A stretch of DNA of 64,000 bases from Proteiniborus sp. MB09-C3 (GTDB lineage: Bacteria > Bacillota > Clostridia > Tissierellales > Proteiniboraceae): assembly GCF_030263895.1 (NCBI RefSeq), contig NZ_CP127161.1, forward strand, positions 3,817,361 through 3,881,360. Direction: 5' to 3'. This document shows, one piece after another, positions 26,139 to 30,570 of the stretch. Numbering within the stretch: the first letter of the stretch is position 1; each line of letters opens with the position of its first letter. The notes under the pieces were generated by a model that saw only the letters and a list, made by a program, of their open reading frames with translations, had not been told where the DNA came from and did not search any database. The position numbers and the translations under genes are program-made.

Positions 26139-27164
26139 CTACACTAATTCAAACTCATCTATTTTTAATGTATTTAAATACATTAAACAATTATCAAAAC
26201 TTACCTCGAGCAATACTAAATTACTTTTCACCTTTGTTTTTGGTGCATAAGCTAATTTTATAGTATCACTATAGTCAAGCTTGGTATATCCTGATGTTCT
26301 TTCTAAAAATTCGAAATCATTTCCTAACCAATCAACATTAACATTAAATTCAATGTCTTCTCCATTAGCGGCAACATAATTATATCTATTGCTATTATCA
26401 TTCAAATAAAAACAGAATCTACCTTCTTCATATTTTACATTTTTTATAAATATTCCATTGTTGAAAAAAAGGTCTGTCTCTGGCTTGTACATTATAATAT
26501 TTTTATATTTGTTATATTTTTTGATTGAAGTCTTTTTTAATAAATATAATAATGTCTGTTTTTCTGCAATGCTCCTACAAGCTATCCCCCTAATGATATC
26601 TGAGATAGGGATTCCATTTTCTCGAACTACTTCTGTATGACGATATTGTTTTATATCACTTCCCTGTGAAAAAGGTCCATCATGAAATATTTTTTGAAAG
26701 TTTAAATATGCAAAATTTTCCGCTCCATCAAGTAAGTTTTCATTGTTATAAGCTCGCCCTGCTAGCCCCTTTTCTATAAACTTAACTCCATCCATTGATA
26801 AAGTTTTTTCCGCATCAAGTAGGAAGAAAACCGGAACAGGACAATTAGCATTTAAGTTGGTTTCTCTAATATGGGGTGGCTTATATCCTTCATTGTGATA
26901 CTGCGTTGGCGTTTTAGGCCTCATGTATAACCTTGCGTATTTTGAAACTTCCTCATTTGTAATCTCAATTACTTGAGAACTCGCATTATCGGTAATCATA
27001 AGTTTTTCCTCATTAGCTTGTTTTCTTCCTAATATATATTCTCTATCAATAATACTTACTGCATTATGCACATCAGTAAAATGATATAAATATAATGGCC
27101 ACCAGTTAATATTTTTATTTAATCTTTCCCTCTGCTCGTTTATAATTTCATTATAGGTCGTCAT
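26139..27164 (-). CDS. darT: DarT-type DNA ADP-ribosyltransferase toxin
   Basis: 341 residues. The N-terminal 210 residues fit the DarT (DUF4433) fold: YLYHFTDVHN (H28-F29-T30) for NAD binding, YARLYMRPKTPTQYH with R82, and YRHTEVV with E178 as the likely catalytic glutamate. DarT enzymes transfer ADP-ribose to bases in single-stranded DNA and block replication, which stops phage growth. The last 130 residues are an extra domain that I do not recognise. It follows the darG-like gene by 14 bases, whereas in the best-known systems the toxin comes first. Confidence 0.8.
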   Translation of the reverse strand: MTTYNEIINEQRERLNKNINWWPLYLYHFTDVHNAVSIIDREYILGRKQANEEKLMITDNASSQVIEITNEEVSKYARLYMRPKTPTQYHNEGYKPPHIRETNLNANCPVPVFFLLDAEKTLSMDGVKFIEKGLAGRAYNNENLLDGAENFAYLNFQKIFHDGPFSQGSDIKQYRHTEVVRENGIPISDIIRGIACRSIAEKQTLLYLLKKTSIKKYNKYKNIIMYKPETDLFFNNGIFIKNVKYEEGRFCFYLNDNSNRYNYVAANGEDIEFNVNVDWLGNDFEFLERTSGYTKLDYSDTIKLAYAPKTKVKSNLVLLEVSFDNCLMYLNTLKIDEFELV

Positions 27165-27178
27165 AAAAGCTCACCTAC

Positions 27179-28033
27179 CTATTCACTAACGTATTGATAT
27201 CCATTACTTTTCAGTAAGTTCTTATCACTATTGTTTACAATAATTATTGGTTGAACATATTCTAAACGTCTTAAAATATCTAACATAATCAAGCCATAAT
27301 CTTCAAATCTATTCGGTAGCCTCTCAATATCTATAACCCCTACATCACGAATATAATTCCAAAAATCACACATGTCTTCTTCTGTTATCAATATCTCACT
27401 TCCATTAATCAGGTGAATCCCATCATCTTCCCACGATATATGTTTTAGCTCACCCTCTTCTACAAAAAGTTCATTATTAGTATTTATAACTTTTTTTATC
27501 TCTTCTTTTATAAAAGAAAATCCAAGGGATTTAACATTACTTCTTAACCAATTCTCCATTTCTAATGGCTGTTTATGTTCTGGATTTTCTTCTTTATAAT
27601 TATCTAAATATATATATACTTGAATTGGAAGGTTTTTAAGATATTTTTCCATCATTGGTCCTACAACATCCCAATCTAAGCCCCCATTCCCACATCCTAG
27701 CTTTGGAAATGCAATCGATTCGACTCCAAGTTTCTCATAAGACTGTACAAATTTTTCTAGCCCCTTTTCTATATATTCTATTTTAGATGGTGAACGCCAG
27801 TGTCTTTTTGTCGGAAAGAGTAAAATCCACCTTTTATCTTTTTTCCATAACATAAGTTTTCCAATTTCTAAGTTATTATCATCGCATATTTCTTGATAGA
27901 CTTTAAACATTTCAGGGTATCTATTCTTAAATTCCAAGGCTATACCTTTTCCCATAACACCTACTGTGTTAACCGTATTAACTAATACCTGTGCTGGGCT
28001 ACTAAATATATCTCCTTTTATATATGTAAGCAT
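27179..28033 (-). CDS. darG: DarG-type macrodomain antitoxin
   Basis: 284 residues. The macrodomain (1-155) has VNTVNTVGVMGKGIALEF (18-35) with the conserved MGKGIA lysine, and FPKLGCGNGGLDW (108-120) for ADP-ribose binding. This is the type that removes ADP-ribose from DNA. The C-terminal part (160-284) is acidic and may bind and neutralise the toxin. Start: ATG 7 bases after GGAGG. A TATAAT on the minus strand (28093-28098) may be the promoter -10. Confidence 0.82.
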   Translation of the reverse strand: MLTYIKGDIFSSPAQVLVNTVNTVGVMGKGIALEFKNRYPEMFKVYQEICDDNNLEIGKLMLWKKDKRWILLFPTKRHWRSPSKIEYIEKGLEKFVQSYEKLGVESIAFPKLGCGNGGLDWDVVGPMMEKYLKNLPIQVYIYLDNYKEENPEHKQPLEMENWLRSNVKSLGFSFIKEEIKKVINTNNELFVEEGELKHISWEDDGIHLINGSEILITEEDMCDFWNYIRDVGVIDIERLPNRFEDYGLIMLDILRRLEYVQPIIIVNNSDKNLLKSNGYQYVSE

Positions 28034-28372: not shown

Positions 28373-29689
28373 CTATTCATCCTGGAGCCTTTTATGAATT
28401 TTTTGCCAATGTCTTTTAGTCTGATCATTTATTCTATTCTCCAAATAATTACTCTCCTGAAAGACTTTTTCAGACTTTCTTGCATATGTTATGAAGTTTC
28501 CATATCCTTTGTTAGATTTCTTGTCACCTAAATGAGTATATAATCTATACAATGACTTTTTAACAGCATTTCCTTCTTTTTCATCCTTGTATTTCTTAAC
28601 AACTTTAACTTTTTTATAAGCTCTAGAATAATACTTGAATAGAGTCTTATCTCTTATCTTAACAACTTGTCCGTCAAAGCTAAATCCTAAATAGTTAATC
28701 ACATCTTTATTGGAATTTAAATTAACTAATTTTCTGTCTGAATTTTTATTATAAAAAAAGTGTTCAGTTTTATCCATATTTAAGTTTAGCCTAGGTATAG
28801 TTCCTTTTACTTTATCAATCATTTCTATATGATGAATATGTATATCTTTATTTATATCTATTTCTTTCATAGGAATGACTATAATTAAATCATCACAATA
28901 TCTTCTATATAAGCCTTTTCTACTTGTAACATAATCATTCATCTGTTTATCAAAGTCAATCATATAGACATTTGAATAAACAGAACTAATTGATGAACCT
29001 TGAGGTATTCCATAAGAGTTTTCATTTTTTTTCAAATATTCTTTTTTAAATTGTCTCAATTCTTGCGTATTAAAATATTTGAGGTCTCTTCTCATCTCCC
29101 TACTTTTTTTACCTTTTATTTTCTCTATATCTTCAAGCTCTATGTATGTATAATTAGTTATGTTTTTTAAAACTGAAAAATGATCATGTGGCAATCTATC
29201 TACCTTTAATATTTGTTTTAATTTCTCTTTTAGATATTCATGATCCAAATTATCAAAAAAACCTGTAAAATCACCAATAAATATAAAAGCGCTTTCATAT
29301 TTTACTATAAATTCCAATGCTTCTCTTGCAAAATGAATATTGCATTTACCAGGTAACGTATTTCTATATGCCGTAGCTACTTTGTTTATTCCTTTATCTA
29401 TTGCTATTCTATTATAGTAATCATTTGTAATCTGTCCATAATACTGATAAATAAATCTATCTATATGCGAAGAATAGAAAATATCTCTCTCTTTTATTTT
29501 TTCTTCTTTTGTTTTAGTATCTTTATTATAAACGTATTTATTAAATTTAATAATATAATGAATAAATGGATAAAACCCATGCGACTTTATCCATTCAGGA
29601 CTTTCAATTAACTTTTTATATTTTTGATGGTTTTTCTTTATATCTAAATGAGTATACCGTTTGCTTTTAAAAACAGTTTTTTTCTTCAT
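28373..29689 (-). CDS. Antiviral-type reverse transcriptase (DRT2-like)
   Basis: 438 residues, a single RT domain with no fused effector. Visible motifs: IGDFTGFFDNLDH (first catalytic Asp D140), GIPQGSSISS (227-236), YCDD (264-267, catalytic D266/D267) and INYLGF (331-336). A conserved segment NTLPGKCNIHFAREALEFI (110-128) recalls the UG/Abi group of defence RTs rather than group II introns or retrons; there is no maturase X domain or HNH. The YCDD box, single-domain length and long structured leader on the same strand fit DRT2-type systems. GGAGG lies 7 bases before the ATG. It is next to darTG in a defence island. Confidence 0.85.
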   Translation of the reverse strand: MKKKTVFKSKRYTHLDIKKNHQKYKKLIESPEWIKSHGFYPFIHYIIKFNKYVYNKDTKTKEEKIKERDIFYSSHIDRFIYQYYGQITNDYYNRIAIDKGINKVATAYRNTLPGKCNIHFAREALEFIVKYESAFIFIGDFTGFFDNLDHEYLKEKLKQILKVDRLPHDHFSVLKNITNYTYIELEDIEKIKGKKSREMRRDLKYFNTQELRQFKKEYLKKNENSYGIPQGSSISSVYSNVYMIDFDKQMNDYVTSRKGLYRRYCDDLIIVIPMKEIDINKDIHIHHIEMIDKVKGTIPRLNLNMDKTEHFFYNKNSDRKLVNLNSNKDVINYLGFSFDGQVVKIRDKTLFKYYSRAYKKVKVVKKYKDEKEGNAVKKSLYRLYTHLGDKKSNKGYGNFITYARKSEKVFQESNYLENRINDQTKRHWQKIHKRLQDE

Positions 29690-30000
29690 GTATTTCCTCC
29701 AAAAGAGCTTGTTAGCTATACGACCGGTAGATATCTAAAGCTAACAAGCATTTTAGTTACTGAACAATATTAAGTATTGATCTAAATCATACTAAATATT
29801 GTCCTCTACCATCCTCCAAAATACGATTTGGTATATGATTACATTATCAATAGTTATAATGAAATTGAACCATTAATAGGAGGTCATGGAATGTACAATA
29901 TAACTCTTATACAATTCACATTATTATTCATAGTCAGATTCTTACTTGACTACGGATACAATTATCCCTTATGACAATAGTAAATATGATTTCATAAGGC
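29690..30000 (-). ncRNA. Structured non-coding RNA upstream of the reverse transcriptase (candidate template RNA)
   Basis: About 310 nt between a strong promoter and the RT start with no sense-strand frame worth calling. Three perfect or near-perfect stem-loops occur in order on the minus strand. The first is CCTTATGA/TCATAAGG (29992-29999 with 29967-29974), right at the predicted 5' end. The second is a 13-bp stem with one mismatch built from ACAATATT and AGTAT (29764-29802). The third is the 11-bp stem GCTTGTTAGCT/AGCTAACAAGC (29707-29749), followed by TCTTTT and the RT ribosome site. The 164 nt between the first two stems is the candidate template. Position and size resemble the ncRNA of DRT2 systems. 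Confidence 0.65.
29786..29971 (+). other. Stop-free frame opposite the RT ncRNA (candidate never-ending ORF unit)
   Basis: On the strand that a cDNA of the ncRNA would have, one frame has no stop for 62 codons (TAA at 29783, TGA at 29972). All three sense frames are riddled with stops. Inside it AGGAGG (29878-29883) is followed after 7 bases by an in-frame ATG (29891). The frame reads LYHPPKYDLVYDYIINSYNE up to the ribosome-site region, then MYNITLIQFTLLFIVRFLLD and YGYNY, a plausible helical peptide. It is not expected to work as a normal gene; its meaning depends on tandem copying by the RT. Confidence 0.5.
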
Positions 30001-30006
30001 ATCTTC

Positions 30007-30035
30007 ATTATATACTAAATAATCTATTTCTTCAA
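30007..30035 (-). promoter_or_regulatory. Promoter of the RT ncRNA
   Basis: TTGAAG (30030-30035) and TATAAT (30007-30012) with exactly 17 bases between, minus strand. The predicted start near 30000 puts the first stem-loop at the 5' end of the transcript. It is far too distant (over 300 nt) from the RT start to be a simple mRNA promoter. Confidence 0.8.
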
Positions 30036-30114
30036 TGTTTTAGCAATTTTATTTCCAATTATACAAACTATTTAGGGATTAACATAAATAACAAAGTGTT
30101 AAGATCATTTTAAT

Positions 30115-30570
30115 TCATTTTTTACTAGATACTGAATAAACTATAATTCCAAAAATAGCTCCAACAGTATCAATAAGTACATCTTTAAACTGCCCACTTC
30201 TGCCAGAAATAAATAACTGGTGAATTTCATCACTTATAGCATAAAAAACGCATATTGTTAAAGCTAAGACTATTTTTCTATATCCATGCACATTTCCATA
30301 TCTCTGAGTATTTATCACTAAAATCCCCAGTATCAAATAAGCAAAAAAATGTGCATTCTTTCTTGTGATATGATTAAAGTTCCCTAAATCAAGCTCTAAA
30401 TCTGGGGCGACCCTTTCCACCGTTCTTATGATCTTCTCTGTTATCCCTGTACTTAAATCATTAGACTTCGTTGCTGACTGATGTGATAAATAAAAAATTA
30501 AAGCCATCCAAATAATAACTGCTATCCAAGAAAGTTTTTTTCTTAAGTTTATTCCATTACATTCTGTCAT
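30115..30570 (-). CDS. VanZ-like family membrane protein
   Basis: 151 residues with four membrane segments (about 12-28, 70-88, 98-113, 130-146). It has the VanZ family features: FYLSHQ near 22-27, RKNAHFFAYLILG near 69-81, and SDEIHQLFISGRSGQFKDVLIDTVG split over 110-137. The family is named after a teicoplanin-resistance gene but is widespread in Firmicutes with unknown function. Nothing around it suggests glycopeptide resistance. It is 9 bases downstream of the 30580-31068 gene. Confidence 0.88.
   Translation of the reverse strand: MTECNGINLRKKLSWIAVIIWMALIFYLSHQSATKSNDLSTGITEKIIRTVERVAPDLELDLGNFNHITRKNAHFFAYLILGILVINTQRYGNVHGYRKIVLALTICVFYAISDEIHQLFISGRSGQFKDVLIDTVGAIFGIIVYSVSSKK

Follow-up and report, generated by a model that had tools for sequence, protein, structure and literature searches.

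Can a stretch of DNA beside a reverse transcriptase (RT) gene hold a further gene that becomes readable only once its transcript has been copied head to tail? This question is raised by a locus in the 64,000-nt stretch of Proteiniborus sp. MB09-C3 DNA analyzed here (the window). An earlier note had described, opposite the putative non-coding RNA (ncRNA) of a defence RT, a stop-free frame with a ribosome site, a -10 element and a -35 element in an order that would make sense only in a tandem array. The central idea of that note is retained: as predicted from the sequence, concatemeric cDNA would supply a promoter and a ribosome site for a frame that never ends, and the layout recurs in relatives. 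The individual elements and the open frame were recovered as described, whereas the -10 element and unit length proposed there are not those conserved in relatives. The locus is very probably of DRT2 type and, by analogy with DRT2 of Klebsiella pneumoniae, its predicted ncRNA would be copied head to tail in 135-nt units, each carrying the promoter and 45 codons of an endless frame (Table 1). As laid out in the genome, both the promoter and the endless frame are unusable.

The reverse transcriptase gene and its predicted ncRNA

The RT is matched by the PADLOC Drt2 profile (464 bits, E 1.4e-139), its translation contains YRRYCDD, as in Drt2-type RTs with a YCDD motif, and its nearest solved structures are DRT2 chains in the PDB (E 1e-53 to 1e-55). 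The match to NCBIfam NF041746 (362 bits, residues 7-435) lies under the curated cut-off of 390. Among the best 120 of 1215 matches, the closest RT proteins outside the window are 60-70% identical, those of Clostridium species among them. The gene is likely to be of DRT2 type with a predicted antiviral role, and the kind of system named in the earlier note agrees with the Drt2 profile and with the neo-type frame opposite the predicted ncRNA. Directly downstream of the RT gene, 26139-28033 on the minus strand encodes a 341-aa toxin resembling DarT and a 284-aa antitoxin that matches the macro-domain protein DarG over residues 1-155 only; the RT and this pair are likely two phage-defence systems side by side.

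A structured ncRNA is predicted just upstream of the RT gene on the same strand, as in DRT2. This region is single-copy in the genome and folds far better than its shuffles (z -4.46). The consensus structure from ten loci comprises 48 pairs, 23 of them with two-sided changes, and 94.9% of cells are paired. Its covariation score is 0.427, compared with 0.217 in shuffles and less than 0.11 in slid versions, a comparison favoured by the derivation of the structure from the same ten sequences on which it was scored. In the 5' handle, 100% of cells are paired in the ten sequences and two-sided changes occur at 5 pairs; the same two figures hold for the main stem of the long 3' hairpin, which is a possible counterpart of the published 'tower'. 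The promoter predicted for the ncRNA is weak alone, because 29600-30200 contains three such sites against 4.7 expected in shuffles. Rfam gave no match at gathering thresholds within the 64-kb window.

One element of this fold bears on the ribosome site. CCUCC, the RNA complement of AGGAGG, can pair with GGAGG downstream of the template (29813-29817 in the window), forming helix 5, which is seen in most loci with 88% of cells paired and no two-sided changes. Part of the conservation of the ribosome site may therefore come from the RNA, and the GGAGG motif is possibly used doubly, for RNA pairing and as the ribosome site of neo.

Table 1. Features of the locus in the window (coordinates are window positions; strand as in the window)
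Feature	Position	Strand	Basis or remark
Drt2 reverse transcriptase, 438 aa, YCDD active site	28373-29689	minus	profile and structure matches
Predicted ncRNA of about 296 nt, oriented toward the RT gene	29705-30000	minus	fold z-score, covariation; ends estimated
Long 3' hairpin of ncRNA	29707-29749	minus	main stem 9 pairs
5' handle hairpin of ncRNA	29967-29999	minus	8 pairs, consensus of 10 sequences
Predicted ncRNA promoter TTGAAG-17-TATAAT	30007-30035	minus	10/12 matches; RNA start about 30000
Predicted cDNA repeat unit, 135 nt = 45 codons, template = minus strand	29825-29959	plus	DLVYDYIINSYNEIEPLIGGHGMYNITLIQFTLLFIVRFLLDYGY
ATAC jump motif, cDNA 5' side, just outside the unit	29821-29824	plus	alignment with relatives
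-10 element TATGAT, in frame Tyr-Asp	29834-29839	plus	TATAAT/TATGAT aligned in nine relatives
TATAAT named in the earlier note, coding for Tyr-Asn within the frame; unconserved as a -10	29855-29860	plus	38 nt from TTGACT in a 135-nt array
Ribosome site AGGAGG, 7 nt before ATG	29878-29883	plus	alignment with relatives
Predicted neo start codon ATG	29891-29893	plus	Met column in 8/8 aligned Neo units
-35 element TTGACT	29946-29951	plus	conserved; 17 nt before TATGAT of the next unit across the junction
ATAC jump motif, 3' end of the unit	29956-29959	plus	exactly 135 nt from the first
Predicted peptide across the unit junction			FLLDYGYDLVYDY

The predicted unit, its promoter and its frame

The unit was delimited by a cDNA-sense alignment of the window with nine relatives, in which the elements follow in the order ATAC, TATAAT or TATGAT, GGAGG with the start codon, TTGACA or TTGACT, and ATAC; this alignment fixes the -10 element and the unit at the positions given in Table 1. 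Unit lengths are 129 nt (L006), 132 nt (L008, L089), 135 nt (the window, L009-L012, L090) and 150 nt (L087), all divisible by three. GGAGG and ATG are in register in 8 of the 10 loci, and L087 and L089 have GGAGG elsewhere in the unit. The jump pair of L011 has TAC alone in common; in L008, ACAC stands against ATAC and is followed by a longer match (ACGAAA). Two of the relatives were deposited as phage, namely L089 (Clostridioides phage HGP05) and L090 (Bacteriophage sp.), and both carry a DRT2 with the complete neo layout, in units of 132 nt and 135 nt, respectively.

In the window, the predicted promoter TTGACT-17-TATGAT, which has two mismatches, would be re-formed only across a repeat junction, as in DRT2. 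The predicted jump pair flanking the template is GUAU in the RNA, not the ACA of known DRT2. The 135-nt unit contains no stops in the neo frame, compared with 4 and 6 in the other frames. The predicted Neo is hydrophobic (GRAVY 0.54, best 19-residue mean 1.73), and eight aligned Neo units have in common Y4, I7, G19, G20, M23, I29, L41 and D42.

Codon selection in this frame is weak. Among the six frames of eight Clostridia-type units, the neo frame has the largest, though modest, contrast (pS 0.388, pN 0.276), and it leads again in one Bacillus-type group (pS 0.628, pN 0.440). In the other Bacillus-type group, the neo frame gives 0.522/0.423 (pS/pN) and a reverse frame has the larger contrast (0.540/0.400), so codon selection is not decisive.

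Recurrence of the layout and variation of the jump motif

DRT2 loci were collected from species genomes (80 loci of the 125 found), viral contigs (three loci), two phage records and several further genomes. Genome loci L046-L085 were represented by 21 of 40, chosen by hand, and joined by L088; L104, a fragment, was left out. In total, 77 upstream regions were assembled, and removal of 15 near-identical or too-short ones left 62 non-redundant loci, the window included; among those removed were L022, which had failed the rule in a preceding comparison, L023, which has a 2-nt match only, and L088. The layout rule called for a promoter pair with at most one mismatch per hexamer and a spacer of 17, plus homology of at least 3 nt ending 7-11 nt after the -35 element; divisibility by three was not used, and the limits were set after inspection of many of the same loci.

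Promoter-plus-homology pairs in the 62 loci have unit lengths that fall 42:2:2 modulo three (42/46 divisible), compared with 124:120:109 in dinucleotide shuffles; these pairs are not independent, as the loci are related and several contribute more than one. Pairs on the opposite (sense) strand are few and also lean to three (12:3:4, 12/19 divisible). When an open frame in phase with the -10 element is added, the full layout is present in 29 of the 62 loci, including the window, in none of the 62 on the sense strand, and in a mean of 0.225 of 62 over 40 rounds of shuffling. It is found in 28 of 41 loci whose RT is at least 38% identical (the window included) and in one (L070) of 21 more distant loci, so no claim is made for RTs under 35% identity. 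L038 qualifies only through a pair other than that of its close relatives. In the 31 loci solved for a unit and in E. coli L111 and L112, the re-formed -10 element reads TAT-xxT in the neo frame, with TAC-AAT in three loci; these loci were partly selected for that phase.

The earlier note had named stops or frame breaks in homologues as evidence against the idea. All 31 solved loci proved stop-free, with every unit divisible by three (129-162 nt), which is not an unbiased count because they were picked partly for an open frame and divisibility. The other two frames of these units hold 2-10 stops each, a number that, unlike the absence of stops in the neo frame, was not a selection criterion.

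The full layout is absent in 13 of the 41 closer loci. Near misses are L021, L034 and L035, with a 2-nt match, and L013, with an 18-nt spacer. L097-L101 and L105 (41-45% identity) and L030, L037 and L086 gave no convincing solution even under wider limits; L086 and L101 contain a divisible unit open in another phase. In L097, L098, L101 and L103 (41-45% identical), -10-like and -35-like motifs stand at the expected places about 400 nt upstream of the RT, CCAACCC follows the -35 in three of the four, and no solution was obtained under the phase rule; these loci possibly differ in promoter or in jump geometry. Among the loci reached through G068, some likewise have -10-like and -35-like motifs where they are expected, outside the phase rule.

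Seven loci from plasmid and E. coli records served as outside controls. Two E. coli drt2 loci (L111, L112) have a 117-nt unit, a TGT match and the -10 element in the same codon phase, in agreement with published DRT2 (PMC12039810). Their TGT match lies 4-6 nt after the -35 element, outside the 7-11 nt range, indicating that the layout rule is tuned to Gram-positive loci. L106 (Photobacterium) has a 111-nt unit and a perfect promoter without a TGT pair, and no clear solution was found in the remaining four, L107 (Psychrobacter), L108 (Nitratidesulfovibrio), L109 (Ketogulonicigenium) and L110 (Enterococcus).

Jump sites were compared in the 31 solved loci between the 17 nt after the -35 element and the 17 nt before the -10 element; in most of these loci the match ends 8-10 nt after the -35, and in L021, L034, L035 and L038 it consists of two bases only. 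Most Clostridia-type loci carry ATAC. Of the ten loci in one Bacillus-type group, four have TTCAC and the others TCAC, CAC, CTAC, TCAT, AAC or a bare AC; of the eleven in a second Bacillus-type group, eight have AAAC and three a bare AC. Of 124 scored columns, 104 agree between the two sites of the same locus, whereas 20000 random re-pairings of loci never exceeded 82; the difference is inflated by relatedness because three clades supply much of it. The within-clade variants CTAC, TCAT and TAATACT also agree between the two sites of the locus in which they occur. There is a good probability that the DRT2 jump site serves as an alignment register that can be re-coded: Gram-positive lineages would have exchanged ACA for GUAU, GUGAA or GUUU at both template flanks, and the unit length would have changed in steps of a codon (129-162 nt) while the 17-nt spacer and the phase of the -10 element stayed fixed, so that one machine could write several unlike endless genes.

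Proposed mechanism and known systems

In the window, the elements, the distances between them, the open frame and the conservation of this arrangement are observed in the DNA; the cDNA and translation steps that follow are modelled on K. pneumoniae DRT2. The RT would bind the ncRNA and, after phage infection, copy the template from 29825 to 29959 in the cDNA sense. The cDNA end ATAC would then melt and re-pair with GUAU beside the template start, priming the next unit, and second-strand synthesis would give double-stranded repeats. In these, TTGACT and the TATGAT of the next unit would constitute the promoter, and AGGAGG and ATG would start translation of a repetitive hydrophobic Neo, which might halt the infected cell.

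The closest alternative keeps the array and changes the unit. The earlier note had proposed TATAAT at 29855 as the -10 element, with a unit of 114 nt or, by a jump between TACA motifs at 29840 and 29957, of 117 nt. TATAAT is a perfect -10; it, both TACA motifs, AGGAGG at 29878, ATG at 29891 and TTGACT at 29946 all occur at these positions, and either unit keeps the frame open. However, the 117-nt unit has a 20-nt spacer and the 114-nt unit merely a 2-nt match at the jump point. TATAAT at 29855 is unconserved, being present in only L090 of the nine aligned relatives, whereas every one of them has TATAAT or TATGAT opposite TATGAT at 29834, and the conserved jump repeat is ATAC at 29821 and 29956. 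This variant is regarded as very unlikely. Slightly less probable still is an ordinary DRT2 whose cDNA acts untranslated, the frame and motifs reflecting RNA structure and common descent. The strong RNA covariation and the weak pN/pS contrast are consistent with it, and the pairing of the ribosome-site complement within the RNA could explain the conservation of that site, but RNA structure does not readily explain the 42 of 46 pairs divisible by three, the stop-free frame in phase with the -10 element, or the constancy of the 17-nt spacer while units range from 129 to 162 nt.

Coincidence in AT-rich DNA (27% G+C in this region) could account for parts of the picture in the window itself. The 62-codon stop-free frame ending at 29971 exists as claimed; when 29690-30114 was shuffled with dinucleotides preserved, a run as long appeared in 306 of 2000 trials, in line with the concession in the earlier note that this run alone could be chance. 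Shuffling the region 4000 times produced 30 layouts that obey the rules, and the window holds a second rule-meeting pair (TATGAT 29985, TTAACA 30079, 117 nt), which lies outside the aligned unit and is taken as chance. A single locus is therefore weak evidence, and the recurrence in relatives carries the claim: the layout returns at aligned positions down to about 38% RT identity and also in E. coli loci, which leaves chance an exceedingly small share of the probability.

These loci suggest that many, though not all, of the examined Gram-positive systems work by the known DRT2 mechanism with a different jump motif. Motifs that differ between clades and match within a locus offer a direct test of how the enzyme chooses its jump site, and the layout can guide searches for genes absent from annotation. 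In PMC11100668, Neo is described as harder to annotate in more divergent clades and other mechanisms are raised as a possibility. The main texts of PMC12039810 and PMC11100668 do not contain the terms Firmicutes, Clostridi-, Bacillus or Gram-positive.

Among known systems, tandem-repeat cDNA is also made from an ncRNA by DRT10, a class 2 UG RT; it is described as protein-primed, and the portion of PMC12632851 used here mentions no such gene product. As in the alignment region of telomerase RNA, a comparison drawn for DRT2 in PMC12039810, a short cDNA end would re-pair with the other copy of its motif within a linear RNA; unlike in telomerase, the predicted unit is 135 nt rather than 4-8 nt and the product is predicted to be coding. 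The closest likeness is to K. pneumoniae DRT2/neo (PMC12039810; PMC11100668), in which a single RT gene has its ncRNA upstream, an antisense -10 lies near the template start and a -35 near the template end, a promoter with a 17-nt spacer is re-formed across the junction, the unit lacks stops and is a multiple of three, the template lies between short matching motifs and Neo is hydrophobic. The ribosome site follows the -10 element at 38 nt here, compared with a published 13 nt for site and start in K. pneumoniae DRT2. Published units of 42 close homologs are mostly 117 nt and in several cases 111 or 129 nt. DRT2/neo is already known, and this locus is a Gram-positive variant of it, differing in the predicted jump motif (ATAC in cDNA, GUAU in RNA, instead of TGT and ACA), the predicted unit length (135 instead of 120 nt) and the predicted Neo sequence.
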